Shown one piece after another: positions 3,276 to 18,465 of a DNA stretch of 21,367 nucleotides. The position numbers were made by a program, and so were the translations under genes. The notes below the pieces were generated by a model that saw only the letters and a list, made by a program, of their open reading frames with translations, did no database searches and had not been told where the DNA came from. Origin of the DNA: a virus. The stretch is taken from positions 1-21,367 of IMG/VR virus record IMGVR_UViG_3300031669_000276. One strand, written 5' to 3'. The first letter of the stretch is position 1. Each line of letters begins with the position of its first letter.

Positions 3276-3277
3276 TT

Positions 3278-4701: not shown

Positions 4702-4916
4702 GTGATATTATTTAAAAACTAATAGAAGCTAAAGAAGTAAAAGTATATTTACAAAAAGGTGAAAAAGCACCCAAAGGAAAAAAAGTTCAAAAAGGTCCTA
4801 ATGGTGGTTTATATTTCATGGGAACTCCTGACGAATCTGTGGTCAAAAAATATAAAGATAATATTGTTAAAATAGAAAAACAATTATATAATTTAAGTGG
4901 AGATGATGATGAATAA
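4702..4916 (+). pseudogene. Broken small tagged protein with GPxGG module (frameshift or nonsense)
   Basis: Good ribosome binding site AAGGAG (4690-4695) precedes GTG 4702, but that frame stops at TAA 4720 after six codons (M-I-L-F-K-N). The real coding frame is open from 4716 to TAA 4914-4916: KLIEAKEVKVYLQKGEKAPK, then GPNGG and LYFMG, ending in an acidic DDDE. It is very close to the gene at 8449. One extra A in the A5 run at 4714-4718 would join the two (M-I-L-F-K-K-L-I-E-A). Alternatively the second frame had its own lost start, since upstream it reads N-S-D-I-I-stop-K-L-I-E-A. The options are a decayed gene, a homopolymer sequencing error, or recoding at TTTAAAAAC. The reading frame itself is well conserved, which argues for recent damage or an error. 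Confidence 0.6.
4737..4823 (+). repeat. GPRGG module, copy in the broken gene
   Basis: A 29-codon module (VKVYLQKGEKAPKG, then KKVQKGPNGGLYFMG) starting 3 codons after the L-I-E-A of the tag. It is nearly identical to the copies at 7404 and 8491, with N in place of the R of GPRGG. Its intact coding sequence suggests that the lesion upstream is recent or apparent. Confidence 0.7.
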
Positions 4917-5193
4917 AATAGAATTAAGAAATATTATTAGAGAAGAAATTAAAAAAGTCTTGAAGGAAGATAATTTAACCCAACAAGGTCTAATTACTTT
5001 ATTTAATAAAAAAGCTAAAAATAAAGAATTAATGATTTTCTTAAAACACTCAGGAAAACATCGTAGCTTAGAATTAGTTATACATGATGAAGATCAAATA
5101 ACATCTAATAAAACTTATGGTCATGGAACAAACCAAGATGGTCATGAAGTAGATTTTAAATTTTCTGATGTTATTAATGCACGTATAGTATAA
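4909..5193 (+). CDS. Small protein with capsid-targeting-like N-terminus
   Basis: 94 residues. I chose ATG 4909 because GGAG (4899-4902) is 6 bases upstream and the protein then begins MNKIELRNIIREEIKKVLKE, the same pattern as other genes here; GTG 4897 and ATGs 4903 and 4906 are in frame but would place the start on or too near GGAG. The first 20 residues form a charged amphipathic helix ending in L18-K-E20, a match to the (L/I)xE site cut by T4-type prohead protease, followed by D-N. The remaining ~74 residues are hydrophilic, with an LVIHDEDQI stretch and a His/Gly-rich YGHGTNQDGHEVDFKFSD. I do not recognise the fold. The start overlaps the stop of the upstream broken frame, suggesting coupling. 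An internal head protein is an inference. Confidence 0.6.
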   Translation: MNKIELRNIIREEIKKVLKEDNLTQQGLITLFNKKAKNKELMIFLKHSGKHRSLELVIHDEDQITSNKTYGHGTNQDGHEVDFKFSDVINARIV

Positions 5194-5201
5194 GGATATT
5201 A

Positions 5202-7313
5202 ATGGAAACCAGAACTTATAGACCTAATGTGGATTTTGATATTATTGCGAATGAATTGTCTTATAGGGTAGGAAGACCTGATCTGAGAAATGAAGACCAC
5301 TTAGGTATACTTGTTGAAATTTTAAAAGAAGCCGGATGGAACAGTTCAGCAATAACTTATTTTATTAGAAATATTATCATTATTGCAGAAGCTACACCTC
5401 CTCCAAAACAACCGTCTGGAAAAAAAGTTAAAGTATATGTATCAAAAGGAGAAACACCACCCAAAGGAGTAAAATTAAAATTGGGTCCAGATGGTGGTAG
5501 ATATTATATGGGATATCCTAAGAACAAAGCTCAAGCTAATAATAAAACACAACTAAATAAAAACGTAAAAGTTGCTCCTAATAAAACTAAAGCTAAAGTG
5601 CAAGCACAACCTAAACAGAATAGTGTTCCTGTTGTACCAAATCAAACTAATCCTGATGCTATTAAGAAAACTAAACAGCCTATTGTAAAACCTGAAGTTA
5701 AGCATGATAAGGATGGGAAATATGTTCCATCTGACCAAGATAAACAAATGATACTGGATAAAGCACAGATAGTCACTACTCAGAGTAAATTTTTAGTAAA
5801 AAAAGCAGCAGTAGAATTAATGGCAAATTTTGATAAAGATGTTCAGCGATTAATTGATACAAGAGATCCTAAATTAGCTACAGATATGGTTGCTAAATAT
5901 GGATTAGAGCGTAAAGTCGATGCAGAAGTTGGTAATAAATCTAAACTTTATATAAATAAATTAAAAGGAGTTGAAGGTAAAGATAGTAAGGTAAAAGCAT
6001 ATAAGTATTTTTGTGATGATAAAGGAAATTTAGAATCTTCAATTCTTGCACAAATACTAATAGATACTGGTGCTCTTAAAAATGTTGGAGGTTATGGTAA
6101 GAAAGCAATGACGCCCAATAAAATTATTACAGAAAAAACTCAATTCGCTGTTAAAGAAATACCAGGTGGAATGCAGGTTGGTGATCACAAGGTTTTACGT
6201 AATGACAAACCATATAATTGGAAAAAAGTAGCACGTGCTTGGAAAAAACAATATGGCTGGTCTAATGAAGAAATTAATAAAAGAATAAAAATAGGGAAAA
6301 AAGCTCAACCCAGACACAATTATATGGTTGAACAAATGAAAGATGCAGTATTCGGTGGACAAGATTCTGTTTACATATTAAAAGTAAGTGATGCTGATAT
6401 AACTACTCCAGAAGGTAAGAGAGCTCACCAAGATGCAATGATAGATGCAACCCTAATAAAAATGAAAGAGCTTGCACGTAATAAATTAACGCCCGGGGTT
6501 AAGAATATTATGGACGGGTTTAGTAGTTTGAAAAATATAACTAATACAAATGATTATGCTACAAGACTCGGTGAAATAATGTTTCAGTTTGCTAAAGATC
6601 CAACAGTAAAACAAACTGCACCAGATATAGCAGAAGTAATTGAATATTTAGCACTATTAAATGAAGGTAAAATGGCATTTATACCAGGTGATGCAAATTT
6701 TGCATTTGGGGATATATTTACTATGTCATTTAAAGTACCTACACTTCAAGATTTAATAGATAATCCTGATAATTTAGCTACTATCTTCATTGGTACCGAA
6801 GATGTTAGTGTTAAGACTGGGCAAGGTGGCGCATCTGGACCCAAACCAAAAATATTATTAACACATTATGATCAACCGGAAGTTCAAGGCCATTTATTAG
6901 CTATCTTAGATAATTATAAAGATTTAATGATTAAAGGAAATACTGATGGTGCAGATAAATTAATAGCTAAATTAGAAAAAATATATGCAAAAGATTTAAA
7001 TAATGATATTTATAAAAAGAGACTGGCAAATATCCCAGATTGGGTAAAAAGAAATGCATCTAAAAAACCATGTAGTCCTGAAAGATGGAAGAGGTATCTT
7101 CGCTTAGGAGCTATATTAGATACAGTAAATAACCAACATATTGACTTTCAGTCTTTAAAAAATTCAAAATATGTTATAGGTAAAACCGGTGTTCATCGTG
7201 ATACAACTAATGGAGTTAATAAGATGGCAACAATGAAGTTTGATCCATCATCAAAATCAAATACTACGTGTACACCAAATCAACCATATGCAACAAGAGT
7301 CGTAAATCAATAG
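5202..7313 (+). CDS. Large protein of unknown function with (I)AE site and GPxGG module; possible internal head protein
   Basis: 703 residues, starting at ATG 5202 after AAGG. Residues 1-52 are a predicted helical segment (ELSYRVGRPDLRNEDHLG). Then comes a hydrophobic helix FIRNIIIIAEATPPP with I61-A62-E63, a possible prohead-protease site followed by Ala. The GPxGG module follows at residues 76-104 (VKVYVSKGETPPKG, GPDGGRYYMG). Residues ~107-165 are a Lys/Gln/Asn/Pro-rich linker. The remaining ~540 residues are a mixed soluble region with no family I can recognise; notable are PGGMQVGDHKVLRNDKPYNW and TGQGGASGPKPKILLTHYD. No membrane segment or signal peptide beyond the short hydrophobic helix. 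It is the largest member of the cluster and may carry the main enzymatic or structural function; delivery with the phage DNA is inferred, not shown. Confidence 0.6.
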   Translation: METRTYRPNVDFDIIANELSYRVGRPDLRNEDHLGILVEILKEAGWNSSAITYFIRNIIIIAEATPPPKQPSGKKVKVYVSKGETPPKGVKLKLGPDGGRYYMGYPKNKAQANNKTQLNKNVKVAPNKTKAKVQAQPKQNSVPVVPNQTNPDAIKKTKQPIVKPEVKHDKDGKYVPSDQDKQMILDKAQIVTTQSKFLVKKAAVELMANFDKDVQRLIDTRDPKLATDMVAKYGLERKVDAEVGNKSKLYINKLKGVEGKDSKVKAYKYFCDDKGNLESSILAQILIDTGALKNVGGYGKKAMTPNKIITEKTQFAVKEIPGGMQVGDHKVLRNDKPYNWKKVARAWKKQYGWSNEEINKRIKIGKKAQPRHNYMVEQMKDAVFGGQDSVYILKVSDADITTPEGKRAHQDAMIDATLIKMKELARNKLTPGVKNIMDGFSSLKNITNTNDYATRLGEIMFQFAKDPTVKQTAPDIAEVIEYLALLNEGKMAFIPGDANFAFGDIFTMSFKVPTLQDLIDNPDNLATIFIGTEDVSVKTGQGGASGPKPKILLTHYDQPEVQGHLLAILDNYKDLMIKGNTDGADKLIAKLEKIYAKDLNNDIYKKRLANIPDWVKRNASKKPCSPERWKRYLRLGAILDTVNNQHIDFQSLKNSKYVIGKTGVHRDTTNGVNKMATMKFDPSSKSNTTCTPNQPYATRVVNQ
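5427..5513 (+). repeat. GPRGG module, divergent copy in the 703-residue protein
   Basis: A 29-codon module (VKVYVSKGETPPKG, then VKLKLGPDGGRYYMG). It aligns without gaps to copies at 4737-4823, 7404-7490 and 8491-8577. It is the most divergent of the four, with GPDGG in place of GPRGG, and lies 12 residues behind an I-A-E site. Confidence 0.7.
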
Positions 7314-7334
7314 AATAATAAAAGGAGAAATTAA

Positions 7335-8036
7335 ATGAGCAAGTTAACACAACTAAGAAGATTAATAAGAGAAAGTATTCTTAGTCTCTTAAAAGAAGAA
7401 GATGTAAAAATATATTTACAAAAAGGTGAGAAACCTCCTAAAGGAAAGAAAGTTCAAAAGGGTCCAAGAGGTGGTCAATATTTTACTGGAAGTGCACAGG
7501 AGAAACAAGCTTTTAACGATGCACCTACTTCTCCTAAAGTGGCCAAAGATAGATTAGATAAAGTTAGAGCACTTGGTCAAAAATCAGAGGATGATGCATT
7601 TGCTGCTCAAGCAAAACCTAGAGTAAATATTTTTAATAAATCATCTACAAAAAAACCCAAAGAAAAATCTAATATCTCGGCAGATGTAATTAAAAATTCA
7701 TTACCTACAGATGAATATATGGATATGATTATAGATATTGAGAGAGATACTATGGGAGATGGTGAAGATAGTTTAGCTAAAGATTATACCGATTTAAAAA
7801 ATTATATAAATAAATCATGGCCAGGTGCAAAAATGTTGAGTACAGAAGACGATGGTGGTGAAGATGTTGGAGATATTATAGATGATTTGGATGGAAATAA
7901 TAAACAGGTTTCAGAGAAAAAGTTTGGTGATAATTTAGAAGTGACTGATTATGGTGAAGCAGCCGTGTTTAGATATAATGATATTGGTGGTTCAATGAAT
8001 ACATTGATAATAAAACCTAAGGGTGCGGAGAAATAA
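7335..8036 (+). CDS. Tagged GPRGG-module protein with acidic C-terminal region
   Basis: 233 residues; ATG 7335 has AAAGGAG about 8 bases upstream. The N-terminus MSKLTQLRRLIRESILSLLK is an amphipathic helix ending in L19-K-E21, followed by E-D, then the GPRGG module at residues 24-52 (VKIYLQKGEKPPKG, GPRGGQYFTG). Residues ~53-110 are a Lys/Ala/Pro-rich linker. Residues ~115-200 are strongly acidic (DEYMDMIIDIERDTMGDGED, later EDDGGEDVGDIIDDLDG), and the end returns to a small mixed domain. The architecture of tag, module, linker and variable domain matches its neighbours. I recognise no enzyme motif. DNA-mimic behaviour of the acidic part is possible but speculative. Confidence 0.65.
   Translation: MSKLTQLRRLIRESILSLLKEEDVKIYLQKGEKPPKGKKVQKGPRGGQYFTGSAQEKQAFNDAPTSPKVAKDRLDKVRALGQKSEDDAFAAQAKPRVNIFNKSSTKKPKEKSNISADVIKNSLPTDEYMDMIIDIERDTMGDGEDSLAKDYTDLKNYINKSWPGAKMLSTEDDGGEDVGDIIDDLDGNNKQVSEKKFGDNLEVTDYGEAAVFRYNDIGGSMNTLIIKPKGAEK
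7404..7490 (+). repeat. GPRGG module, copy in the 233-residue protein
   Basis: A 29-codon module (VKIYLQKGEKPPKG, then KKVQKGPRGGQYFTG), 2 residues behind the L-K-E of the tag. It is nearly identical to the copy at 8491-8577 in the core PPKGKKVQKGPRGG. Confidence 0.75.
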
Positions 8037-8037
8037 A

Positions 8038-8439
8038 ATGACAAATTCACAGTTATTAATTACGTTTACAAAAGATAGAAAACTTGATGACATAATACAA
8101 GAAATAAAGACTGCTTATATAATATCATTTAATAAAATATTTGTGTTAGAAAATGAAGATAATATTAAAGAATTGATTTGTAGCTATAATATTAATTTAA
8201 ACGAAAAGATAAATGAAGAAAGTATACCTCAGAACACAATTGGGGTTCATAGGAAAAAAGCAACAAATACCTTGTATACAATTAATGCATTGAATTATTT
8301 GATCTCTGCATTGAACGATGGAAACCTGGATGTTAATTTTCCAGTGCCATGGGAAAACTACAGGAATTGTATTCTTGTGACAAACGGTGGTGAGTTCAAA
8401 AAAATCAAAACTAAATTAAAAGTAATACTAGAAATATAG
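8038..8439 (+). CDS. Conserved-looking protein of unknown function
   Basis: 133 residues. I place the start at ATG 8038, which has GGAG 7 bases upstream (8027-8030) and begins 1 base after the upstream stop; an in-frame GTG at 8023 would lie in the preceding gene and overlap the ribosome site. The protein begins MTNSQLLITFTKDRKLDD, with no capsid-targeting-like segment and no GPRGG module, so it differs from both neighbours. It looks like a compact alpha/beta domain, with GVHRKKATNTLYTINALNYL in the middle and PWENYRNCILVTNGGEFKK near the end. I cannot assign a family. Its place between two tagged genes suggests co-expression, perhaps as a chaperone or regulator, but nothing in the sequence shows this. 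Confidence 0.6.
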   Translation: MTNSQLLITFTKDRKLDDIIQEIKTAYIISFNKIFVLENEDNIKELICSYNINLNEKINEESIPQNTIGVHRKKATNTLYTINALNYLISALNDGNLDVNFPVPWENYRNCILVTNGGEFKKIKTKLKVILEI

Positions 8440-8448
8440 GAGACTAAT

Positions 8449-8931
8449 ATGAGCATAAATCTAATTGACTTATTAACAGAAGCTAAAGAAGTTAAAATAT
8501 ATTTGGAACCTGGACAAAAACCACCCAAAGGAAAGAAAGTTCAAAAAGGTCCAAGAGGTGGAGAATATTTCTTGGGAACATCCGGAGAAAAAGCGATGCA
8601 TAAAGCAGTGACTAAATATGATTCTGACCGGGCCGCTGCTAAGGATAAACCAAACGTTAAATTAAATAAAAATAAAACAAACTCTATGGGAGAATCTGCT
8701 AAATTACCCAAAGGAATGAAAATTGGTTCTTATCTTGAACCATACAGTTGGGAATCAACATCTGTTGCTCCTCCTATATATAGGGTTGATAAAATTGATG
8801 ATAACAATGGGTATGTATATTTTACAAAACTTGACAGTAAAGGAAAACCAATTAAAAAATTAAAGAAAACATATGCAGGGGTTGATAATGGTATGTTAAC
8901 TATTATAAGAAAACCAAGAGGAACAAAATAA
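8449..8931 (+). CDS. Tagged GPRGG-module protein, short
   Basis: 160 residues; ATG 8449 has AGGAG 7 bases upstream. The tag is the shortest in the set: MSINLIDLLTEAKEVK, with L9-T-E11 followed by Ala. The GPRGG module covers residues 15-43 (VKIYLEPGQKPPKG, GPRGGEYFLG). A lysine-rich linker follows (DKPNVKLNKNKTNSMGESA), then a ~75-residue C-terminal domain that looks like a small beta barrel (LPKGMKIGSYLEPYSW, then IYRVDKIDDNNGYVYF). I do not recognise the C-terminal domain. The first 45 codons are very similar to the broken gene at 4702-4916, so the two are probably duplicates. It is the last gene before the gap upstream of the ssDNA-binding protein. Confidence 0.65.
   Translation: MSINLIDLLTEAKEVKIYLEPGQKPPKGKKVQKGPRGGEYFLGTSGEKAMHKAVTKYDSDRAAAKDKPNVKLNKNKTNSMGESAKLPKGMKIGSYLEPYSWESTSVAPPIYRVDKIDDNNGYVYFTKLDSKGKPIKKLKKTYAGVDNGMLTIIRKPRGTK
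8491..8577 (+). repeat. GPRGG module, copy in the 160-residue protein
   Basis: A 29-codon module (VKIYLEPGQKPPKG, then KKVQKGPRGGEYFLG), 3 residues behind the L-T-E of the tag. Its PPKGKKVQKGPRGG core is identical to that in the copy at 7404-7490. Confidence 0.75.
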
Positions 8932-9038
8932 AATTATTAGTATGTTTGGCATTTCACCTATATATATTAATAATCAGTTATTAATTTAACTAATTAAACA
9001 TTAAACTAATTAAACACTAAAGCGCAAGGAGAAACAGC
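8932..9038 (+). promoter_or_regulatory. Leader of the ssDNA-binding protein gene: hairpin plus UUAAAC repeats, likely autoregulatory
   Basis: The 107-base gap contains a perfect 8-bp hairpin at 8966-8985 (ATTAATAA, loop TCAG, TTATTAAT). It is followed by an unpaired AT tract with TTAAAC at 8995-9000, 9001-9006 and 9011-9016, and then the Shine-Dalgarno AAGGAG (about 9026-9031). In T4, gp32 represses its own translation by binding a pseudoknot and cooperatively coating a UUAAA-rich unstructured leader. The arrangement here is similar in outline, but I see only a simple hairpin, not a pseudoknot. A promoter may also lie here; no convincing -35/-10 pair is visible. Confidence 0.5.
8988..9019 (+). 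repeat. 16-bp tandem repeat in the ssDNA-binding protein leader
   Basis: Two adjacent 16-base units, AACTAATTAAACATTA (8988-9003) and AACTAATTAAACACTA (9004-9019), differ at one base. They lie between the hairpin and the ribosome binding site and carry the TTAAAC elements. Confidence 0.8.
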
Positions 9039-9851
9039 ATGGCAAAGACCCAATCGAAAGACGACCTTCTTAACCTCGTTAAGAAAAGATTAAAACAATT
9101 CTCAGATTCATCAACCAGAACTTCAGGCTTATGGAAACCAACAGGCGAACACACTATTCGTTTAGTTCCATATAAGTTTGCTGACTTCCCATTTATTGAA
9201 TTATATTTCCATTATGATTTCAATAAGAAAAATCTTTTATCACCAATTTCATTCGATAGACCAGACCCAATAGCTGAGTTTGCTGAAAAGCTAAAAGCAG
9301 CTGGCGACAAAGAGTCCTTCGACCTTAGCAGAAAAATTTCTCCGAAAATGAGAACTTATGTTGCTATGATTGTTCGTAGTGAAGAAGACCAAGGTGTTAG
9401 ATTCTACGGAATGGGTAAAACCGTTTACGAAGAAATACTAAAAATCATGGATGACCCGGATTATGGAAATATTTTTGACCCATACACCGGAACAGACTTG
9501 GTAATCACCTATGAAACCCCGGCAGAAGTTGGTAATGATTATGGTAAAACTTCAATTCGAGCAAAAAGGAATACTTCCAGACTTGCAGAAGCAGATGACG
9601 TAATTGAAGAGTTATTGAATAATCAAAAACCAATTACAGATATCTATAAGGAATTACCTTATGATGATATAGCTACACTCCTAAAAGAATGGTTGAACAA
9701 GGATGATGAAGAAGAAGCTCCAACAAAACCAGCTGCTAAACCTGAAGGTAGCTCAAAGAAACCTACAGAAAAAGTAGATGACGATGTTGTTGGTAAAGCG
9801 GATGAAGCATTCACTAAGTTGTTCGATAAAAAACCAAACGAAAAAAAATAG
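9039..9851 (+). CDS. Single-stranded DNA-binding protein, T4 gp32-like
   Basis: 270 residues. It would coat single-stranded DNA at the replication fork and in recombination and contact polymerase, helicase loader and recombinase through its acidic tail. Residues 30-44 (GLWKPTGEHTIRLVP) and FHYDF at 57-61 fit the OB-fold core of gp32-like proteins. The C-terminus is a Lys/Pro linker followed by an acidic/amphipathic tail (DDDVVGKADEAFTKLF), as in gp32. The protein has no cysteine at all, so the zinc site of T4 gp32 (His and three Cys) is absent. The start has AAGGAG 7 bases upstream, and the leader resembles a gp32 autoregulatory operator. The recombinase gene begins 9 bases after the stop, the natural partner in a shared operon. 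Length is slightly below T4 gp32's (301). Confidence 0.8.
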   Translation: MAKTQSKDDLLNLVKKRLKQFSDSSTRTSGLWKPTGEHTIRLVPYKFADFPFIELYFHYDFNKKNLLSPISFDRPDPIAEFAEKLKAAGDKESFDLSRKISPKMRTYVAMIVRSEEDQGVRFYGMGKTVYEEILKIMDDPDYGNIFDPYTGTDLVITYETPAEVGNDYGKTSIRAKRNTSRLAEADDVIEELLNNQKPITDIYKELPYDDIATLLKEWLNKDDEEEAPTKPAAKPEGSSKKPTEKVDDDVVGKADEAFTKLFDKKPNEKK

Positions 9852-9860
9852 GAGAAATTA

Positions 9861-11108
9861 ATGGCTAAATCTAAAAATAAAAGTGAGAAGTCACCAAAGA
9901 AAGTTGTAGCATCTTCTAAAGGTGAGCAAAGAGATAAGCTTATTGATAAAGTTTATGACTTGATTAATTATGGTGATGCGCCCGCATACTTCTTAGACCA
10001 GCCCGAACTATCCCCTTCAGATATCGTTGATTGGATTTCCACTGGCGATCCAATCCTCGATATTTATGTTAGTAATAGAGTCAATGGTGGTATACCAGTT
10101 GGAAGAATAACAGAAATAAACGGTTTAGAGTCATCTGGTAAATCATTATTAATCGGACATATATTAAAAGAAACCCAGAAAAAAGATGGAATAGCAGTAT
10201 TGATTGATACAGAGTTTTCTGTTGATAGAAACTTTTTAGAAGCTATTGGTGTAGATTTGAGTAAGATGATTTATGTTCCAACTAATCTTATTGAAAATGC
10301 ATTCCAAATTATTGAAAATATTATTGAGACAGTTCGTAAAGAAAATAGTGATAGATTAATTACAGTTGCTGTTGATTCAATTATGGGTGCTACAGATAAA
10401 ACTGAACTTGAAGGAGATTGGGCTAAAAAAGGATATGCGACTCAAAAATCTATCGTATTAGGTAGAGCAATGAGAAAAATAACAGAAACAATTGCTAAAC
10501 ATAGAATAGCACTTGTCTTTACAAATCAACTTAGAAGTAAAATTGGTGTAATGTTTGGAGATCCTTGGACAACAAGTGGTGGAAAAGCTATACCATTTCA
10601 TTCATCGTTGAGATTAAGATTAAAGATGATGTCTAAAATTAAATCAGGAGATAAAGTTCTTGGTATAAAAACTAATTGTGGTGTTATTAAATCACGATTA
10701 GGTTCAATGTATAATAGTTGTAATTTTGATATCTATTTTGATAGAGGAATAGATGCAGAAAATACTTGGTTTGAACAAGGAAAATCAGTTGGTGCAATTA
10801 TTAAAGCTAAAGCATTAACAGACCCAAATTTACCCGAAGGTCCTAAAAACAAGTATAAAGAAGTTAAAGGTTATTTTATGTTAGCAAATGACCCCGAAAG
10901 AAAACGATTTAATGCTTCAACTTTTGCAAGTATTGCTTTAGTTGATAATGCAAACAAAAAGTTTATTTTAGATGAAATTGCTGAACACGTTCTATTAAAA
11001 TATTCTTCTGATAAGGAAGCTATTAATAAAGAATTGATAGAATATGGAGAAGTAGGAGAACTTGATGACGGTGAAGATGTTGAACAGAAAATAAAAAATA
11101 AAGAATAG
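9861..11108 (+). CDS. uvsX: UvsX/RecA-type recombinase
   Basis: 415 residues. This ATPase would load on gp32-coated single strands and drive strand exchange, recombination-dependent replication and repair. The Walker A motif is GLESSGKS, residues 88-95 (K94); the RecA-like lead-in is GGIPVGRITEINGLESSGKS. Other RecA features are VLIDTEFSVD, a Walker B-like LITVAVDSIMGA, FTNQLRSKIGVMFGDPWTTS (matching the NQ...G....P..T..GG loop) and GGKAIPFHSSLRLRL. A lysine-rich N-terminal ~25 residues and an acidic tail (ELDDGEDVEQKI) flank the core. Ribosome site AGGAG is 6 bases before ATG. It follows the gp32-like gene directly and is closed by a strong terminator, so the two form one unit, possibly with upstream genes. 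Confidence 0.88.
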   Translation: MAKSKNKSEKSPKKVVASSKGEQRDKLIDKVYDLINYGDAPAYFLDQPELSPSDIVDWISTGDPILDIYVSNRVNGGIPVGRITEINGLESSGKSLLIGHILKETQKKDGIAVLIDTEFSVDRNFLEAIGVDLSKMIYVPTNLIENAFQIIENIIETVRKENSDRLITVAVDSIMGATDKTELEGDWAKKGYATQKSIVLGRAMRKITETIAKHRIALVFTNQLRSKIGVMFGDPWTTSGGKAIPFHSSLRLRLKMMSKIKSGDKVLGIKTNCGVIKSRLGSMYNSCNFDIYFDRGIDAENTWFEQGKSVGAIIKAKALTDPNLPEGPKNKYKEVKGYFMLANDPERKRFNASTFASIALVDNANKKFILDEIAEHVLLKYSSDKEAINKELIEYGEVGELDDGEDVEQKIKNKE

Positions 11109-11112
11109 TTAT

Positions 11113-11135: not shown

Positions 11136-11147
11136 AGGAAATTAATA

Positions 11148-11969
11148 ATGAAATTAAAAGACATAGTATCTGATTGTACAATAATATTGACAGGAACTAT
11201 TATTCCTGAAAAAATGGATATGATTGGGAGAATATTACAACACAACTCTGTAGTATTTAATCAATTTAAAAATATTGTATATAACGTAAATTGCATTCAT
11301 GACAGTGATTGGGATTTGGCCGATGATTATCAAAGTTTATTAACACATTTCCTTGGTCCAAACATTAAAATTTATTTATTGAGAGATTTTATCAATAGAG
11401 GATGGCAGTTTGGAACAATGGACCTTGAAAAAACTGCATATTCTTTTTGTAAATTGAACTTACATACCGAATGGGTATTAAAATTAGATTTTGATATGTT
11501 AGTGCAAAAAACTATATTAGATATGAATGTCGACAATGGAGATGCATTTTATTTACCATCAGTTGGATATGCTTCTATCGCAGACAAAAAGGATTTTGCA
11601 GATATTGTAGTAGATTTTGAAACTCAAACATTAGATATTATTAATCCACAAACTACGATGTATTTGTTAAGAAAAGAATTAGATTGTTTATATGCAAATC
11701 AAGAATGGACAAATTCTAAATATAAAGAAACTATATTAAATACAACTACAGCAATTAAGTTAGGAGTTTCATGTGAGTCACAACTTAATGCAACATTTAA
11801 AAGAAATAACTGCAGAATTAAGTGTATGTTATCAAATGAATTATTTCATACATTATTAGATACTATTGTTGAAAAAAATATACATGACCCTAGTCATAAA
11901 AATATTTTATTTAGTCAAATCGGTGTATGTCACATGTTAGATGATAAAGCAAACGTGATATTTATATAA
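11148..11969 (+). CDS. Possible GT-A-fold glycosyltransferase
   Basis: 273 residues, starting at ATG 11148 after AGGAAATTAATA. The N-terminus (CTIILTGTIIPEKMDMIGR) reads like the first beta strand of a GT-A fold. The central HTEWVLKLDFDMLVQ contains D114-F-D116, a DxD motif in the expected strand-end position for metal and nucleotide-sugar binding. WQFGTMDLEKTAYSFC precedes it, as the helix before the DxD often does. The C-terminal half gives no further clear motif. Targets could be DNA bases, host surface glycans or a virion protein; nothing in the window shows which, and no base hydroxymethylase is seen here. It sits after a terminator among replication genes, so DNA modification is conceivable. 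Another nucleotide-sugar enzyme or an unrelated protein is possible. Confidence 0.45.
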   Translation: MKLKDIVSDCTIILTGTIIPEKMDMIGRILQHNSVVFNQFKNIVYNVNCIHDSDWDLADDYQSLLTHFLGPNIKIYLLRDFINRGWQFGTMDLEKTAYSFCKLNLHTEWVLKLDFDMLVQKTILDMNVDNGDAFYLPSVGYASIADKKDFADIVVDFETQTLDIINPQTTMYLLRKELDCLYANQEWTNSKYKETILNTTTAIKLGVSCESQLNATFKRNNCRIKCMLSNELFHTLLDTIVEKNIHDPSHKNILFSQIGVCHMLDDKANVIFI

Positions 11970-11982
11970 TACAGGAAAGTTT

Positions 11983-13041
11983 ATGAGAAGCAAATTTGCA
12001 CAAATATTAGATGAAATTAAGCACGATAATGAAGTTCTAAAAACATCTAATTTAAATTCAAAAATTTTAATAGTTGATGGTCTAAACAATTACATTAGGA
12101 TATGGGTCACAATGCCTACTGTAAATGATGACGGCATTCATATTGGTGGGATTACAGGATTTTTACAAACGCTCGGTAAATCAATTCGAATATTAAAACC
12201 AACAAGATTAATTGTTGTGTTTGATGGTAAAGACTCTTCGAAAAAAAGAAAAAAAATATATCCAGGATATAAAGCTAACCGTGGTAAAGGGGTAAGACTA
12301 AATAGAACACACGACTGGAATAGTGATGCAGAAGAAGAACAACAAATGATACAACAACTACTAAGAGTTATTCAATATCTAACACAATTGCCCTGCACAG
12401 TAATGATGCTAAGTAATGTTGAAGCAGATGATACAATCGGTTATTTGGCAACTGAAATGTGTGAGAAAAATCCTGATGTTGATGAAGCATATATTATGTC
12501 TACAGACAAGGATTTCTACCAGTTAGTGAGTGATAAAATAAAAGTTTGGAACCCAATAAAAAAACAAGTTATTGATAAAGCAAAGGTTGTCGAACTATAT
12601 GGTATTCAACCTCATAATTTCTTATTATTTAAAGCGATGAACGGTGATGCAAGTGATAATTTACCGGGTATCAAAGGTATAGGAGTTAAGACAGCAGCAA
12701 AACAATTTCCTATATTAACCGAACATAAGTACCATACTACAGATGATGTAATTTCTTATGCTTCAGGGCATCAGAACTCATCGCGGTTATGCAAATTACT
12801 TATTGATAATAAACAACAATACCTATTAAATTATGAACTTATGAGGCTTACTGGAGGTGAAATTAACAAAACTTCAGCATTACAAATAATTGAATTATTT
12901 CGTAAAACAACAAAAAAATTAAGTATAAAGAAGATACAAGAAATGGTAATGCAAGACAAATTATGGTCAGCATTTCCAAATATTAACTCTTGGATTTCGA
13001 CAAACTTTTCTCATTTAAATCATTTTGCCGAACCCAGATAA
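11983..13041 (+). CDS. rnh: 5'-3' exonuclease / RNase H, FEN1-like (T4 Rnh type)
   Basis: 352 residues. It would remove RNA primers and 5' flaps from Okazaki fragments. The metal-binding acidic residues of the PIN/FEN family are in order: IVDGLNN (D32), VVFDGKD (D81), VEADDT (E147, D149, D150), STDKDFYQL (D175, D177) and GDASDNLPGIKGIGVKTAA (D222, D225). The last is also the helix-hairpin-helix that grips duplex DNA. IYPGYKANRGKG after D81 is the usual basic arch entry. Length is close to T4 RNase H (305) with an extra C-terminal ~40 residues. Its start is 13 bases after the previous stop. It is followed by the GAAAGTCGGCCA motif and then the helicase, all expected fork partners. Confidence 0.9.
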   Translation: MRSKFAQILDEIKHDNEVLKTSNLNSKILIVDGLNNYIRIWVTMPTVNDDGIHIGGITGFLQTLGKSIRILKPTRLIVVFDGKDSSKKRKKIYPGYKANRGKGVRLNRTHDWNSDAEEEQQMIQQLLRVIQYLTQLPCTVMMLSNVEADDTIGYLATEMCEKNPDVDEAYIMSTDKDFYQLVSDKIKVWNPIKKQVIDKAKVVELYGIQPHNFLLFKAMNGDASDNLPGIKGIGVKTAAKQFPILTEHKYHTTDDVISYASGHQNSSRLCKLLIDNKQQYLLNYELMRLTGGEINKTSALQIIELFRKTTKKLSIKKIQEMVMQDKLWSAFPNINSWISTNFSHLNHFAEPR

Positions 13042-13045
13042 CTTT

Positions 13046-13057
13046 GAAAGTCGGCCA
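13046..13057 (+). repeat. GAAAGTCGGCCA motif, copy 1
   Basis: A 12-base string 4 bases after the exonuclease stop. The identical string follows the helicase stop by 4 bases (14464-14475). The GTCGGCC core is unusually GC-rich for this genome and I see it nowhere else in the window. Confidence 0.7.
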
Positions 13058-13085
13058 ATAATTATTATAAATTAAGGAGTTATTC

Positions 13086-14459
13086 GTGCAAGTTGATAGT
13101 TTATCCACCTTAGGTCCCGCATATCAGTCTAAAATAATTGTAAGTTTAGTATTAGATAAAGATTTTTTAGAAGCATCAGACGATATTCTATATCCAGAAT
13201 ATTTTGAGTCTGAAGCGAACCAATGGATAGTGACAAAAATAAAAGAATATTATCAGATATATAAAACTCCACCAACGGCAGAAGTTTTCAAAGTAGAATT
13301 AGATAAAGAAACAAATGATTTATTTAAAGATGAAATTGTTAAAAAGCTGAAGGATGCAAGTGATTTTTCTGATGCTCCAGATTTAACTTTTGTTAAAGAA
13401 AAGTTTTTAGAGTTTTGTGTTAATCAACACTATAAGATAAGTATATATAAATCAATTGATTTATTGAAAAACAAAGAATATGATAAAATAAAGAAATTAT
13501 TTGATGATGCTTCTAAAGTAGGTCAAAATAAAAATATCGGTTTGAAATTATTATCAGAAGATGTTAATAATATATTCTTAAAAATGAAAAGAAATTGTAT
13601 TCCAACTCCTTGGGATATTATTAATGATATTTCAGAAGGTGGTTCTGGTGGTGGAGAATTATGGATAAATGTAAGTGGACCCGGCGGTGGAAAAACTTGG
13701 ACATTATGTGATGTTGGAGCATTTGCACTTAGAACCGGTTTGAGTGTAATTCATTATACATTAGAACTAAGTGAAACGATGGTAGCCAAAAGATATTATT
13801 CAGCAATTACAGGAATAGCATCTCACGATTTACCATATAACATTGCTGAAATTATGCATAAGATTAAATCACTTAGTGCAAAAGCAAGTAATTTAACTAT
13901 AAAAGAATATCCAACTAAAGGTGCAAGTGTAAATACATTAAGAGCTCATATAGATAAAATGATTAAACTTGGATTACCACCAAATTTAATTATAGTTGAT
14001 TATGGTGATTTATTAAAAGCACCACAATATTATAAAGAAAAACGCTTAGAATTAGGAAATATATTTGAAGAACTAAGAGGGTTAGCAGGAGAATTTAAAG
14101 TGCCAGTATGGACTGCTTCTCAAGCAAATCGTTCAGGTGCAGAAACAGATACTATTTCAGGAGAACAAGTAAGTGAGGACTATAGTAAAATATTTATTGG
14201 TGATTTTATTTTTTCTACTTCAAGAAAAGTTGAAGACCAAGTTCATAAAACAGCAAGAATATTTATTATTAAGAATAGATTTGGTGTTGATAAAATAACT
14301 TTTCCAGCAAAATTTGATGTGTCAAACGGCAATCTAAATATATATGAAGAAAAGAGTGTTCAAGGACAAGAATTAAAAGGAAATATGAATAAAAAGGAAA
14401 ATAATGTGAGAAAATTATTAAAAGACAGATTTTATTCAGACAAGAAAAAAACTGAGTAA
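13086..14459 (+). CDS. Replicative DNA helicase, DnaB / T4 gp41-like
   Basis: 457 residues. A hexameric 5'-3' helicase that would unwind the fork and recruit primase. It starts at GTG 13086, which has AAGGAG at 13074-13079, spacing 6. The N-terminal ~170 residues are the helical domain (LGPAYQSKIIVSLVLDKDFL). The RecA-like motor then has Walker A GPGGGKTW (K203), HYTLELSETMVAKRYYS (the DnaB motif 1a region), Walker B LIIVDYGDLLKAP, and the sensor VWTASQANRSG. The final block KNRFGVDKITFPAKFD corresponds to the arginine-finger region near the DnaB C-terminus. No primase domain is fused. Length is close to T4 gp41 (475). It follows the exonuclease by 44 bases and precedes the reductase. Confidence 0.88.
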   Translation: MQVDSLSTLGPAYQSKIIVSLVLDKDFLEASDDILYPEYFESEANQWIVTKIKEYYQIYKTPPTAEVFKVELDKETNDLFKDEIVKKLKDASDFSDAPDLTFVKEKFLEFCVNQHYKISIYKSIDLLKNKEYDKIKKLFDDASKVGQNKNIGLKLLSEDVNNIFLKMKRNCIPTPWDIINDISEGGSGGGELWINVSGPGGGKTWTLCDVGAFALRTGLSVIHYTLELSETMVAKRYYSAITGIASHDLPYNIAEIMHKIKSLSAKASNLTIKEYPTKGASVNTLRAHIDKMIKLGLPPNLIIVDYGDLLKAPQYYKEKRLELGNIFEELRGLAGEFKVPVWTASQANRSGAETDTISGEQVSEDYSKIFIGDFIFSTSRKVEDQVHKTARIFIIKNRFGVDKITFPAKFDVSNGNLNIYEEKSVQGQELKGNMNKKENNVRKLLKDRFYSDKKKTE

Positions 14460-14696
14460 AAAAGAAAGTCGGCCACTATATATTAAAGTGCACAAATAAA
14501 ATTTTAAATTAGAAATTAGTTTACGGTTATTTAACGGTATATTAGTGTGAAGTAAACCGCTTAACTATTTCTGCCGCGTGCGATTAATCCTAATTAATAA
14601 TTTAAACTTTTCCTTTTTTAAATTAAAAATATTTTTAAAACTAACAAATAATTAATAGTAATTATTAATCATAAGCTACGATTTGGAGAAACATAA
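14460..14696 (+). promoter_or_regulatory. 237-base leader of the ribonucleotide reductase gene
   Basis: The longest gap in the window. It holds the GAAAGTCGGCCA motif, then two spaced ACGGT units (TTTACGGTTAT and TTTAACGGTATAT, about 14520-14545), a GTTTAC...GTAAAC pairing and a small GC-rich patch CTGCCGCGTGCG near 14570. Long A/T runs follow, and a 7-bp hairpin ATTAATA-GTAAT-TATTAAT lies at 14651-14669, 15 bases before GGAG. The hairpin resembles the one before the ssDNA-binding protein. No clear cobalamin riboswitch or sigma-70 promoter is visible. A leader of this size suggests independent control of the reductase. Confidence 0.4.
14464..14475 (+). repeat. GAAAGTCGGCCA motif, copy 2
   Basis: Identical to copy 1 at 13046-13057 and in the same place relative to a stop codon (4 bases after the helicase stop). 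Downstream bases diverge after a C, though both continue into an AT-rich stretch. Confidence 0.7.
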
Positions 14697-17297
14697 ATGA
14701 TACAATTTGAAGACGTTAAAAATGTCACTACAGAAGACTATTTTAATAATAATCAGTTCTCTATTGACGCCTTCAACAAGAAATATGCAGCATTTTCAGG
14801 AGAAACTTACCCACAGGCTCTAAAAAGAGTTTGTGATTTTATAGCCTCAGTTGAAACTACAAAAGAACTTCAAAAATATTGGTCAGAAAAATGGTTCGAT
14901 GAAATATATAATGATTGGTGGCATCCCGCAGGCTCGATTATGCAAGGAGCCGGTGCCGATAGAAAAATCTCCCTGGCAAATTGCACCACGATATCGATGG
15001 GAGTTCAAGACGATAAAAAAGAATGGGACAATTTAGAGTCTATTATTAAAAATACCGGTTATACATTAGCAAAAACTGCTGCTTATCGCCAGGGTTTAGG
15101 CATTGACGGTTCACGATTGAGACCAGAAGGTTCAGCAATTATGAACTCAGCAAACAAATCTACGGGTGTAGTTCATTGGCTTCAATGGTTAGATAGTATG
15201 GCCTACTATGTTGGACAACAAGGTCGTATCCCTGCAATTCTTTTATCCCTGAGTATCAAACATCCCGATATTGAAAAGTTTATTACTGTAAAATCAGATT
15301 ATACTAAAATCCAAAATGCAAACATTTCAGTTCAAATCACAAATGATTTCTACAAAGCGGTTGAAAATAATGAAGATTGGGAATTATATTTTAAAATACC
15401 AAAAACTAAAAAAGGTGAAAAGATTTATGTTGATGTTCATTCAACTGATATGGACTGTAAATATGATGATGAAGTAAAAATGTGGTATAAGATAGCATCT
15501 CATAATAAAAAAGAAGAAGTAATTACAAAAACCATCAAAGCTAAAAAATTATTAGAATTATTAGCTGAGAATATGGGTAATAATGCTGAACCAGGAATAC
15601 AAAATATAGATATAGCAAGACAACTTTCCAACTCAGATGCAGTTTATGACCCTAATGATATTTATGACTCAAGAATATTATCTACAAATGCCTGTTCAGA
15701 ACAATACTTGTCTCGTGAGAGTTTATGTGTTCTTTCTTCTATTAATATGGAAACATTTTCTGTAGACTCAGTTGAATGTGGACACCAACTAATGAATATT
15801 GGTGAGTCGATAAATAGATTTTTAGATAATGTAAATGAATGTGAATTAGTATATCAGACTTATGCAACTCCTCATCAAAAATTAGCAATCGAAAAACTAA
15901 GAAGAACTGGTGCAGGAATTACAAATATTGGTGGTTGGTTATTTAAATTATATATGGAATATGGAAGTCCTAGTGCAAATCTAAAAGTTGATTACTTTTT
16001 AGAAATGTATAATTACGCGTTATATGTTTCTACAATAAAACTAGGTAAAGAGAAAGGTAGCTTTGGTTTATTTAATAAAGAAAAAATAGTAAAATCTGGA
16101 TTTATTAAACAATTACAAGCTCATCTAAAGAAACGTGGTTATAAAGAATTAGTATTCGATGCAATGAGAAATGTCACTGTGTCTTCAATAGCCCCAACAG
16201 GAACCTTATCACTTATGTTTAGAACAATGCCTATGAGTTATGGAATTGAACCTGGTTTTGGTTTATATTATTGGAAGAGAACAAGAATAAGTGGTAAGTA
16301 TGAATATTACTTTATTGTTCCAAATATAGTTAGAAGAGCATTTGAAGTATCAGGTATAGATTTAGGACTAAAATCAGATGCAATAAAAGATACTTGGGAT
16401 GGAAAATATGGAAAACCGGTAGCAAAAATTATAGATGAAAATAGAGATAAATTTAAATTCAAAAATGCAACTGAAATAGACCCAATGGATAAGTTAGATT
16501 TGATGAGTAGAGCTATGAAGTCAGTTGACTCCTCAATCTCTGTCACGTATATGCTTCCAGAGAAAACAACTACAAAAGATGTGTATAAGTTTATATTAGC
16601 TGCTTACAATAGTGGTGTCAAATCAATAGCAGCTTTCCCGGATAGAAAGATGTATGGTATAATTTCTTTAGTGCCGTTTAAAGATTTAGCAATGAAACTT
16701 AGGTCAGAAGGTGTCAACATTTCAGCACAGAACTTTTCTCCAGATGAATTAAAAGAAATGAATATGTCTTATGAATATATCCAAGTTTCTTCTGCTCCAA
16801 AAAGACCAACTAAATTACCATCAGACGTTTATAGCATTACTGTTAAAGGTGAAAAATTCGTAGTAGCTATTGGATTATTAAATGGTGCTCCTTACGAGAT
16901 TTTCTGCGGTAAAATGAATGGACTTAATTTCAAATTCCAATACAAAGAAGGTATTATTGAGAAGGTTAAAAAAGGTCAATACAAACTTGAAATAGGAGAA
17001 GATATTTCAGTTGAAGATTTCTCTGGTTATTTTAAACCGGTAGAAGCTGAACTATTTAGAATGGTTTCGACCTCAATGAGACACGGGGTTCCTATTAAGT
17101 TTATAGTAGAACAATTAAGCAAATCAGCACACGATTTTAGTTCTCTAACAGCAGCAGCAAGTAGAGTATTAAAGAAATATATTAAATCAGGTGAAATTGC
17201 AACAGGAATTACCTGTCCAAATTGTCACTCTGAAGTAGTTTATGATGATAGTGGTTGCACAACCTGTACTAAATGTGATTGGAGTAAATGTGCATAA
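14697..17297 (+). CDS. nrdJ: Class II ribonucleotide reductase (adenosylcobalamin-dependent)
   Basis: 866 residues. Reduces ribonucleotides to deoxyribonucleotides for phage DNA synthesis, with no separate radical-generating subunit. The active-site elements are SLANCTTISM (C96, the first redox cysteine) and STNACSEQ (N331, C333, E335, the radical-site N-x-C-x-E, with Ala in place of the usual Pro). SSIAPTGTLSLMF is the substrate-binding PTGTLS loop. The C-terminus has the NrdJ cysteine tail: CPNC, then GCTTCTKCDWSKC, which shuttles electrons from thioredoxin. The block KRPTKLPSDVYS followed by GAPYEIFCGKMNG is also typical of this class. Length fits the family, and no intein or frameshift is seen. 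GGAG lies 9 bases before ATG. The host must supply B12 or its coenzyme for it to work. Confidence 0.9.
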   Translation: MIQFEDVKNVTTEDYFNNNQFSIDAFNKKYAAFSGETYPQALKRVCDFIASVETTKELQKYWSEKWFDEIYNDWWHPAGSIMQGAGADRKISLANCTTISMGVQDDKKEWDNLESIIKNTGYTLAKTAAYRQGLGIDGSRLRPEGSAIMNSANKSTGVVHWLQWLDSMAYYVGQQGRIPAILLSLSIKHPDIEKFITVKSDYTKIQNANISVQITNDFYKAVENNEDWELYFKIPKTKKGEKIYVDVHSTDMDCKYDDEVKMWYKIASHNKKEEVITKTIKAKKLLELLAENMGNNAEPGIQNIDIARQLSNSDAVYDPNDIYDSRILSTNACSEQYLSRESLCVLSSINMETFSVDSVECGHQLMNIGESINRFLDNVNECELVYQTYATPHQKLAIEKLRRTGAGITNIGGWLFKLYMEYGSPSANLKVDYFLEMYNYALYVSTIKLGKEKGSFGLFNKEKIVKSGFIKQLQAHLKKRGYKELVFDAMRNVTVSSIAPTGTLSLMFRTMPMSYGIEPGFGLYYWKRTRISGKYEYYFIVPNIVRRAFEVSGIDLGLKSDAIKDTWDGKYGKPVAKIIDENRDKFKFKNATEIDPMDKLDLMSRAMKSVDSSISVTYMLPEKTTTKDVYKFILAAYNSGVKSIAAFPDRKMYGIISLVPFKDLAMKLRSEGVNISAQNFSPDELKEMNMSYEYIQVSSAPKRPTKLPSDVYSITVKGEKFVVAIGLLNGAPYEIFCGKMNGLNFKFQYKEGIIEKVKKGQYKLEIGEDISVEDFSGYFKPVEAELFRMVSTSMRHGVPIKFIVEQLSKSAHDFSSLTAAASRVLKKYIKSGEIATGITCPNCHSEVVYDDSGCTTCTKCDWSKCA

Positions 17298-17342
17298 TTA
17301 CCCAAAATCTATATTTATATATAATATAAAATAGGATAAGCT

Positions 17343-17888
17343 ATGAAAAATAAGCACGCAGTCACAGATTTAATATTAGAGAAATGGTATAAAAATCCAT
17401 TAAATGAAGCTGAAAGTAATTTTAAAGGTGGTCTATTAAAATCATCTAGAACCAAAACTCAGTGGTATTGGCTTCACGCATCTGTTCCAGCAAAATTTGA
17501 TATTGATTTCAAATATAAAGTTATTTTTAATATAAAAAATATTAAAAGAGATTTTGCTTTACCTGGAGATTTAGTTCACTGGGAAGGTTTTTATCAAAAT
17601 ATAATTAATAAAAACTTTTCTGAAAGAGGTGTTTGGATTAAAGCTAAATATGTGAATGTTCCAGGTTTTAAAGTCAATGGTGTTGTTTACAATTCTGAAG
17701 CAACCGACAGAACATTAAATCCTAAAAGAACTACTAAATATGATTTTAGACATACTATTACTTTAGAAGCAATTGATAAAACTAAAGTATTTAAGAAAGA
17801 TGAAATTGCAAAAGCTGCTCAAGAGTTTGTAAATAAATTCGAAAACATTGCGTATCAAGATACAGAATATTATAAGATAACAAAATGA
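17343..17888 (+). CDS. Protein of unknown function with possible (L/I)xE-type N-terminus
   Basis: 181 residues. The N-terminus MKNKHAVTDLILEKWYKNPL continues N-E-A, giving L20-N-E22 followed by Ala as in the tagged genes; I11-L-E13 is another possible site. The rest has WYWLHASVPAKFDIDFKYKV, LPGDLVHWEGFYQ and FSERGVWIKAKYVNV, and looks like a beta-rich soluble domain. A C-terminal helix (KDEIAKAAQEFVNKFE) closes it. I recognise no family. TATATTTA lies 26 bases before the start. It begins a run of three small genes that share the tag, separated from the first cluster by the replication genes. Confidence 0.55.
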   Translation: MKNKHAVTDLILEKWYKNPLNEAESNFKGGLLKSSRTKTQWYWLHASVPAKFDIDFKYKVIFNIKNIKRDFALPGDLVHWEGFYQNIINKNFSERGVWIKAKYVNVPGFKVNGVVYNSEATDRTLNPKRTTKYDFRHTITLEAIDKTKVFKKDEIAKAAQEFVNKFENIAYQDTEYYKITK

Positions 17889-17908
17889 AATAATTCAAGG
17901 AAAATAAA

Positions 17909-18154
17909 ATGAAAAAATCAGAATTAAAACGCATCATCCGTACTGAAATAAAAAAACTTTATGAAGCTAAAAGTCCAAAAGATTTAGCAGTTGGAGATAA
18001 TATTAAATTTTATACTTGGGTACCAGACCAGAATATTGGTAAAAAAATGCAAACCAACTCAGGTAAAATAATTAAAATAAACCAACAAACTATAGTTATA
18101 AAAGACAAATCTGGAAATACAGTTAAAATAGATAAAGAACAAATTGTAAAATGA
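17909..18154 (+). CDS. Small tagged protein with SH3-like barrel
   Basis: 81 residues, with AAGGA 9 bases before the ATG. The tag is clear: MKKSELKRIIRTEIKKLYEA, an amphipathic basic helix ending in L17-Y-E19 followed by Ala, very similar to the gene at 4909. The remaining ~60 residues (VGDNIKFYTWVPDQN, SGKIIKINQQTIVIKDKSGN, VKIDKEQIVK) alternate short beta strands and turns, as expected for a small SH3/KOW-type barrel. Such barrels often bind nucleic acid or protein, but no ligand can be deduced. Its stop overlaps the next start by 4 bases (ATGA), so the two are translationally coupled. If cut at E19, the mature protein is ~62 residues. Confidence 0.6.
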   Translation: MKKSELKRIIRTEIKKLYEAKSPKDLAVGDNIKFYTWVPDQNIGKKMQTNSGKIIKINQQTIVIKDKSGNTVKIDKEQIVK

Positions 18155-18465
18155 AAAATATAAAATTGAAAAGCTTATTAAAAGAAGAAACTGATTATGT
18201 TAATTATTTCAACAATAACAAATTTAGATTGTCAAAAACTTTTGTTAATTGGTATTTTAAAAAATATGGTAAAGATGTTCGTTATGACAATCCAGAAAAA
18301 TGGATAGGAAAATTAGCAAAAATATATAAAGTTAAGCCAGGAGATACTTCTATTCAAATTTCTTGGATGGCAAAATATAAATATTTTAATGATTATACTC
18401 CAAGATGGTCAATAATGATACCTTTCGAGGACGTTTTTAAACATAAATTATTAGATAAAATATAA
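18151..18465 (+). CDS. Small tagged protein of unknown function
   Basis: 104 residues, starting at ATG 18151 inside the ATGA overlap with the upstream gene. The N-terminus MKNIKLKSLLKEETDY ends a short basic helix with L10-K-E12 followed by acidic residues. The body is basic and aromatic (FVNWYFKKYGKDV, WIGKLAKIYKV, ISWMAKYKYFND, RWSIMIPFEDVF) and could be a compact nucleic-acid-binding or structural domain; I recognise no family. It shows no GPRGG module. It ends a three-gene run before a 61-base gap carrying TATATTTG and the AAAAAGGTTA ribosome site of the SLOG gene. Confidence 0.6.
   Translation: MKNIKLKSLLKEETDYVNYFNNNKFRLSKTFVNWYFKKYGKDVRYDNPEKWIGKLAKIYKVKPGDTSIQISWMAKYKYFNDYTPRWSIMIPFEDVFKHKLLDKI

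Follow-up and report, generated by a model that had tools for sequence, protein, structure and literature searches.

Candidate T4-type capsid-targeting propeptides, in new sequence dialects, on accessory proteins of uncultured T4-like phages

Functions have been assigned to few of the internal proteins of phages; those with an assigned role, such as the IPs and Alt of T4, counter host defences or alter host enzymes as soon as infection begins. With a tag recognizable in sequence, candidates for packaging and injection could be listed for many uncultured phages, and the tag peptides may also serve to direct proteins into the heads of phages of other bacterial groups.

In T4, IPI, IPII, IPIII and Alt carry a capsid targeting sequence (CTS) that is cut by gp21 (PMC9026906; PMC12373910). 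The propeptide of T4 gp23 is 65 residues long, and IPIII has been used in tag-fusion experiments for bringing foreign protein into the head (PMC9026906). In phiKZ and SPN3US the ejection proteins gp53 and gp54 share 15 identical N-terminal residues and are cut after a glutamate (PMC5694885). The basic adaptor domain of PBCV-1 (PF08789) is found on A278L and A282L, which are abundant basic DNA-associated virion proteins (PMC3281028).

Here we examine a stretch of 21,367 nt (IMGVR_UViG_3300031669_000276, positions 1 to 21,367; the window), in which the feature spanning 4716-18465 had been read from sequence only as a set of tagged internal proteins. The N-termini in question are, in our judgement, probably T4-type capsid-targeting propeptides that use new sequence dialects and are carried by accessory proteins that change fast. 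As part of the same explanation, the window would come from an uncultured T4-like phage with relatives that encode a prohead protease of the gp21 type (S77). The record is a fragment with neither head genes nor protease, and its membership in the S77-encoding T4-like group therefore rests on synteny with G003 and other contigs.

Tagged genes in the window

All eight (L/I)xE sites named in the sequence-only reading are present where it placed them, and the Ala that it noted directly after five of them is there in IAE/A, LTE/A, LIE/A, LNE/A and LYE/A (Table 1; a slash marks the putative cut). A long dialect, M(K)K.EL[KR].II[KR]EEI..VL.E, opens ORFs 4909, 7335 and 17909, and a short dialect, M.I.LI.LLxE, opens ORFs 8449 and 18151 and the broken gene (4716); the N-terminus of ORF 17343 fits neither. 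The tags are 11-22 residues long in six window ORFs, and that of ORF 5202 (63 residues) lies outside the T4-type range of ~7-20 residues. The proposed amphipathic character of these segments holds for part of the set. Taken against internal 20-mers, the hydrophobic moment stands at the 97th percentile for ORF 4909 and the 99th for both 7335 and 17909, with the site helix of 5202 at the 91st and 17343 at the 72nd, but at the 22nd for 8449 and the 1st for 18151.

Table 1. Coordinates of tags, cargo and basic modules in the window
Feature	ORF	Position	Strand	Sequence and putative site	Remark
Tagged-gene remnant with basic module		4716..4916	+	KLIE/AKEVKVYL (LIE/A)	
Basic adaptor-like module	broken gene	4737..4823	+		alignment A4
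Long-dialect tag	4909-5193	4909..4968	+	MNKIELRNIIREEIKKVLKE/D (LKE/D)	LxE kept in L291 orthologue
Tagged cargo ORF, 94 aa	4909-5193	4909..5193	+		no assigned function
Putative N-terminal targeting domain	5202-7313	5202..5390	+	ends IIIIAE/A	site at residues 61-63
703-aa cargo	5202-7313	5202..7313	+		N-terminal domain, basic module, fast-evolving body
Basic adaptor-like module	5202-7313	5427..5516	+	VKVYVSKGETPPKGVKLKLGPDGGRYYMGY	alignment A4
Long-dialect tag	7335-8036	7335..7397	+	MSKLTQLRRLIRESILSLLKE/E (LKE/E)	
Basic adaptor-like module	7335-8036	7404..7490	+	VKIYLQKGEKPPKGKKVQKGPRGGQYFTG	
Short-dialect tag	8449-8931	8449..8481	+	MSINLIDLLTE/A	
Basic adaptor-like module	8449-8931	8491..8577	+	VKIYLEPGQKPPKGKKVQKGPRGGEYFLG	
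N-terminus	17343-17888	17343..17408	+	MKNKHAVTDLILEKWYKNPLNE/A (LNE/A)	outside both dialects
Long-dialect tag	17909-18154	17909..17965	+	MKKSELKRIIRTEIKKLYE/A (LYE/A)	
Short-dialect tag	18151-18465	18151..18186	+	MKNIKLKSLLKE/E (LKE/E)	

A loose form of the site, [LIVMF][LI]xE in residues 6-30, occurs in 10 of the 21 window N-termini compared with 8.2% of internal windows (p=2e-6). It also occurs in 5/14 core replication and tail genes (cargo versus core, p=0.14), and we dropped loose [LI]xE counts alone as a discriminator in the window because the core genes match too. The loose pattern does not discriminate within the window; the comparative data do. Whether such starts are equally common on non-virion genes, in which case the tag would lose its meaning, thus received a divided answer from this rough test: the loose pattern is on the window core genes, the long-dialect motif is absent there.

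Relatives inform on most of the individual genes. The L291 orthologue of ORF 4909 (5675) begins MKNTELRKMIREEIKNALSE/V, retaining LxE, and the two proteins are 86-95% identical over residues 41-94 and only 35% over residues 21-40. The 4716 remnant has a stop codon just before its site and lacks a usable in-frame start; at the same place L291 has an intact 264-aa orthologue (4880-5674, MISIKKIISE/AKEVKVYL). G003 4081 resembles ORF 7335 C-terminally and has a different N-terminus, ending (by eye) VLSE/A. The tag of ORF 8449 shares its form with T4 gp24 (MAKINELLRE/S), IPII/IPIII (MKTYQEFIAE/A) and immuto 24569 (MIKLIDLLTE/S); as a direct query of viral contigs this ORF found no relatives. In L005 the orthologue of ORF 17343 (17082-17669) starts with a longer N-terminus of another sequence but keeps the junction (LDE/AES), and its body is conserved. 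The ORF 17909 tag opens like the tag recovered from IMG/VR contigs, and the form of the ORF 18151 tag matches MIKLKSLLTE/ (G026) and MIKLKSLLQE/ (Mel-JY01).

We rejected the site of ORF 5202 as a short tag: it closes an N-terminal domain of ~63 residues, for which the model shows three helices and then a disordered stretch (low confidence, mean pLDDT 46). Residues 1-60 are 85-95% identical to L291 per 20-residue block, compared with 45% for the whole protein and 88-95% for the neighbouring genes, and the site is retained in relatives as IAE/A and VSE/A. The S77 gene of G003 precedes the orthologue by 4.6 kb. ORF 5202 had no match in Pfam, PHROG or phage records, including cultured phages, and its predicted structure (pLDDT 46) was too poor for a fold search.

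ORFs 5202, 7335 and 8449 and the 4716 remnant share, just after the site, a basic module of ~29 residues (VKIYLQKGEKAPKGKKVQKGPRGGxYF) that the sequence-only reading had missed. Alignment A4 holds eight copies with 71% mean column identity. PF08789 (PBCV_basic_adap) is the best Pfam match for four of the eight (best E=0.018), at 12.3 and 14.3 bits in the matches shown against a gathering cut-off of 20.4; the ORF 7335 copy (E=0.045) and a G003 copy (E=7e-4, 16.5 bits) also fall below it. The module thus weakly resembles the chlorovirus basic adaptor. Its profile had no match in the PDB, and a DNA pattern for it found nothing, partly because the pattern excluded Lys at one position.

The tag on unrelated proteins of other phages

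Searched with a degenerate DNA pattern covering the first 13 tag residues, IMG/VR gave at least 120 matching stretches, and 84,980 genomes of bacteria and archaea gave four (counts not per base). In 92 proteins that show no BLASTP similarity beyond residue 22, conservation extends through residues 14-20, which lay outside the query, and [LIVMF]xE ends at residue 20 in 54 of them, where composition predicts 2.1. Conservation drops to background at residue 21, and the residue following the site varies (N, E, S, G, A, D). Fifteen of the 92 have no obvious site in residues 15-26. The suggestion that the tag is portable, with its check for more proteins of this start, is borne out: in relatives the motif stands on many otherwise unrelated proteins, and homologues swap tags. 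Exchange at or near the site is seen in the pairs L160 and L198, and L130 and L186, and between G008 12844 and immuto 125241 (E=3e-9); a head-operon protein (..TTGDVAGYxTPxAF) likewise occurs with several different N-termini.

Cultured relatives of tag-bearing phages infect Flavobacterium (immuto, on Flavobacterium sp. LMO8) and Microcystis (Mel-JY01), and the tag spans many environmental metagenomes. Tagged proteins in these two isolates are 24569, 102294, 113188, 118632 and 125241 of immuto and 11243, 60276 and 62056 of Mel-JY01. Tagged genes make up about a fifth of the genes of G008, and some tagged proteins bear a second, internal copy of the tag. Other searches returned little. With the short tag peptide as query, tblastn against phage records gave no match (the query was probably masked as low complexity), and the long dialect MKKSEL[KR]xIIKEEIxxVLxE did not occur in the paper text searched. 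Upstream of tagged genes the T4 late promoter TATAAATA showed no exact-match enrichment, and a weak one with one mismatch allowed.

The cargo is diverse. Pfam gave almost nothing convincing on 91 tagged proteins, and the cargo of L130 2026 and L133 was not found in cultured phages. A three-sequence model of the L133 cargo family (pLDDT 67) matched Tpt1 (E=6e-4) and DarT1 (E=2e-3) in Foldseek; both are ADP-ribosyltransferase folds, and the family is predicted to share this fold, like T4 Alt.

Prohead protease and head-protein sites

The expected gp21-like S77 protease is encoded in relatives (in G003, which is syntenic with the window, in G026, and in 15/30 tag-bearing contigs overall) but the 21-kb window record, a fragment, gave no match to it, and neither did the control genomes. 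The 15 include 13/13 contigs with a T4-type Gp23, and both G003 and G026 have S77 and Gp23 together. S77 has a tagged gene no more than ~1.5 kb away at 11 of its 17 loci. S77 went undetected in G012, G017 and G013, yet these have some similar N-termini. The contigs were picked for bearing the tag and are fragments, so that this co-occurrence has no clean negative set. As both checks that could be run on sequence, for the S77 protease and for further tagged proteins, were positive in relatives, the reading of these genes as tagged internal proteins is supported.

The head proteins of the same phages have putative sites of this kind. Most Gp23 propeptides end Q[LIV][IV]xE/[AST], the protease C-terminus has [LIVM]xE/[GS], and the G003 scaffold N-terminus has AIAE/A. 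By sequence, then, the Gp23 and protease sites are mainly [ILV]xE/[A/S/G] at the expected place, with a small residue after the putative cut, whereas the residue after tag sites is more varied; cleavage of some tags may therefore be inefficient or fail altogether.

Proposed route, alternatives and known systems

We propose that during prohead assembly the tag would carry its cargo protein into the scaffold core, where the S77 protease would cut after (L/I/V)xE. The mature cargo would remain in the head amid the packaged DNA and then enter the host with it. The tag would act as a portable address on many unrelated accessory proteins, among them small proteins and predicted host-modifying enzymes such as ADP-ribosyltransferases, and a conserved head-operon gene also bears it. 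In the four window genes with the basic module, directly after the cut, this part would be retained after cleavage and may anchor the mature protein to DNA. An extended version is possible, if rather doubtful: a two-part address, with a removable head-entry peptide and a retained DNA-holding basic module of the giant-algal-virus kind, together with tandem cargo polyproteins. Candidates for the latter, which the prohead protease would separate at internal tags, are G003 4081 and 14827, G026 343723 and G008 14599.

The tag might instead be an uncut helix for docking to the head or during assembly, by which accessory proteins are held to the scaffold, to the portal or to some other part of the virion, with E20 merely ending the helix. 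The strong amphipathicity of the long tag and the variable residue after E20 would suit such a helix, as would the many ejection proteins of giant phages that are unprocessed although their homologues are processed (PMC5694885). We nevertheless consider it unlikely, given that conservation ends at the glutamate of LxE, that homologous cargo behind different tags starts at or near the site, and that a putative site of this kind is also present in the Gp23 and the protease of these phages.

Less probable still is that the likeness of the 5' ends chiefly reflects DNA, as a translation-start or recombination sequence spreading among genes, with a peptide that has no role. Codons 2-5 are indeed nearly fixed as AAA AAA TCA GAA (H=0.09 bits per Lys codon versus 0.60 background), and tagged genes are frequently neighbours (46 adjacent pairs versus 27 expected). 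Against this, synonymous variation in codons 9-20 is near background while the amino acids are fixed, and that part is therefore kept as protein; genes of the same kinds also bear a second, short dialect with a different spelling. Chance, to which the commonness of both (L/I)xE and N-terminal helices and the poor cargo-core contrast in the window might point, can be almost dismissed in view of near-identical tags on 92 unrelated proteins, their near absence from cellular genomes and their exchange at the site. For the long dialect it is already refuted; the short dialect and ORF 17343 rest on fewer sequences.

The capsid-targeting propeptides proposed here can be set beside three described systems. 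Like PF08789 of PBCV-1, the module is a short, basic GPxGGxYY-type segment joined to varied proteins; it differs in the host, in the type of virus and in following a putative cleavage site, and its match is below the curated cut-off. The head propeptides of phiKZ and SPN3US similarly place a shared N-terminus on diverged proteins with glutamate at the site, but their sites are AxE or SxE and their propeptides mostly exceed 100 residues, compared with (L/I/V)xE and mostly 10-22 residues here. Relative to the T4 CTS, the tag has a different sequence, is borne by phages from many environmental metagenomes, occurs on about a fifth of G008 genes and is repeated inside some proteins. It is like the T4 CTS in being N-terminal, ~10-20 residues long and ended by (L/I)xE on otherwise unrelated proteins, in occurring in phages that have Gp23 and an S77 protease, and in its variable accessory cargo, which, with a predicted ADP-ribosyltransferase among it, would include a counterpart of T4 Alt.

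N-terminal sites in the window and its relatives

In the window, a viral record of 21,367 bases, two groups of small ORFs flank replication genes of T4-like type (SSB, UvsX/RecA, exonuclease, helicase and ribonucleotide reductase). All eight (L/I)xE sites claimed in the sequence-only reading were found in place. The amphipathic character ascribed to the segments before them held for ORFs 4909, 7335 and 17909 and for the site helix of 5202, and did not hold for 8449 and 18151. The pattern [LIVMF][LI]xE occurs within residues 6-30 in 10 of 21 window N-termini, compared with 8.2% of internal windows (p=2e-6), and is also present in 5 of 14 core genes, giving a contrast between cargo and core of p=0.14. 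Because core genes match, this contrast is weak and two tags are not amphipathic, the window alone is insufficient to establish the tag.

Relatives were collected by searches with RecA (8 loci) and ribonucleotide reductase (39 loci). In L291, a close syntenic relative of the window's left cluster, the counterpart of the broken gene is intact and starts MISIKKIISE/AKEVKVYL (the slash marks the putative prohead-protease site), and the orthologues of 4909 and 5202 have the sites ALSE/V and IIIIAE/ATP. The genes neighboring 5202 are 88-95% identical between window and L291. At the sequence level the front end of 5202 is conserved while its cargo is altered, since the N-terminal domain is 85-95% identical, residues 61-100 including the basic module 70-80%, and the full protein 45%. 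For 17343 the junction is conserved (LNE/AES in the window, LDE/AES in the relative L005) and the preceding tag is different. In G008, a contig whose reductase is 82% identical to that of the window, about a dozen of 52 genes begin MKKSEL[KR]xII[KR]EE or with the short form MKLKxxIxE, many of them consecutive and adjoining tail genes. Some ORFs with a second, internal tag look as if tagged genes had been fused head to tail (Table).

Eight copies of the basic module behind the site can be aligned across 29-30 columns, and PF08789 is the top Pfam match, under the cut-off, for four of them. Chlorovirus proteins with this domain are DNA-associated and abundant in virions (PMC3281028), and a possible kinship of the module with the PF08789 basic adaptor is a lead only.

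Table. Additional features of the window and related phage loci
Locus	Position	Feature	Context
Window	238-4657	878-aa, 121-aa and family-A polymerase-like genes	Precede SSB/RecA; order much like Flavobacterium phage immuto
Window	11148-11969	273-aa ORF; Pfam gave no match	Between RecA and exonuclease; missing from that place in L001 and L002
L005, L002	L005 6773-8579, 11024-15315; L002 4453-5964	Intein- or homing-endonuclease-like insertions	Split RecA, helicase and reductase genes; window copies uninterrupted
G003	ORFs 4081, 14827	Second, internal tag	
G026	ORF 343723	Second, internal tag	
G008	ORFs 13091, 14599	Second, internal tag	
Microcystis phage Mel-JY01 (L287)	11243-13162	639-aa cytidylyltransferase-like (CTP_transf_like) protein; short tag MGKLINILLSE at start	A few genes ahead of terminase

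Spread and conservation of the long tag

Further proteins with the same start, which the sequence-only reading had proposed seeking, are present in number. A degenerate DNA pattern covering long-tag residues 1-13 matched at least 120 stretches in viral contigs and, across the genomes of 84,980 species, four stretches, each within a metagenome-assembled bin (raw counts, not normalized by bases). The tagged proteins reduce to 92 families without BLASTP similarity past residue 22. Across these families each position carries 1.1-3.0 bits of information up to residue 20 and <0.4 from residue 21 on. In 54/92 families residue 20 is the glutamate of an [LIVMF]xE, against 2.1 expected from composition, and in 77/92 the pattern lies anywhere in residues 15-26, against 17.4% of control windows. 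Synonymous variation in codons 9-20 is about background. Codons 2-5 in IMG/VR loci are nearly fixed as AAA AAA TCA GAA, with the Lys codons far below background synonymous variation.

Prohead protease, head genes and differing tags

A gp21-like S77 protease (PF03420), likewise sought on the sequence-only reading, is encoded in the relatives G003 and G026 and in 15 of 30 tag-bearing contigs. PF07068 (Gp23) matches 13 of the 30, G003 and G026, all of which have S77. At least one tagged gene, and up to five, lies within about 1.5 kb of S77 in 11 of 17 loci; in G003 tagged ORF 39779 immediately precedes the protease and the 5202 orthologue lies 4.6 kb after it. The Gp23 propeptide junction in tag-bearing phages is mostly Q[LIV][IV]xE/[AST], and [LIVM]xE/[GS] is conserved near the C-terminus of the protease. 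In-frame TGA codons inside all three S77 genes of contigs L163, L166 and L182 (G044, G046, G048), and inside Gp23 of two, suggest that these phages read TGA as an amino acid.

Homologues can differ in their tags. L160 117 (ITE/) and L198 465 (LNE/) share 67% across 78 residues behind differing tags, and the likeness between L130 4278 and L186 5589 starts just behind theirs. The match between G008 12844 (VLKE/QGGYVE) and immuto 125241 (TIQE/QGGYVE), a gene between protease and scaffold genes, begins at the site (E=3e-9). The ..TTGDVAGYxTPxAF protein of the portal-protease interval has N-termini of several kinds across phages.

Cargo and the T4 leader

The long-tagged proteins L133, L142 and L194 form one family, and two of the three weakly match Pfam Tox-ART-HYD1. 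Structural matches to the family's AlphaFold model (3 sequences, pLDDT 67) are Tpt1 (E=6e-4) and DarT1 (E=2e-3), each of which has an ADP-ribosyltransferase fold. Short-tagged proteins of Mel-JY01, G019 and G026 have H-x-T openings resembling this family, with Pfam support absent where scanned. Alt, which T4 packages in its head, is an ADP-ribosyltransferase.

The T4 sequences read for comparison were IPII and IPIII (MKTYQEFIAE/A), gp24 (MAKINELLRE/S), gp22 (MLKEQLIAE/A) and gp23 (FLTE/A), in all of which the cut position is established. The N-terminal leader is the sole part shared by the T4 internal proteins, which are injected and inhibit host defence (PMC12373910; PMC9026906). The tags described here fit the same working principle, with putative virion presence, cutting and cell entry, but are written in sequence dialects that differ from that of T4.
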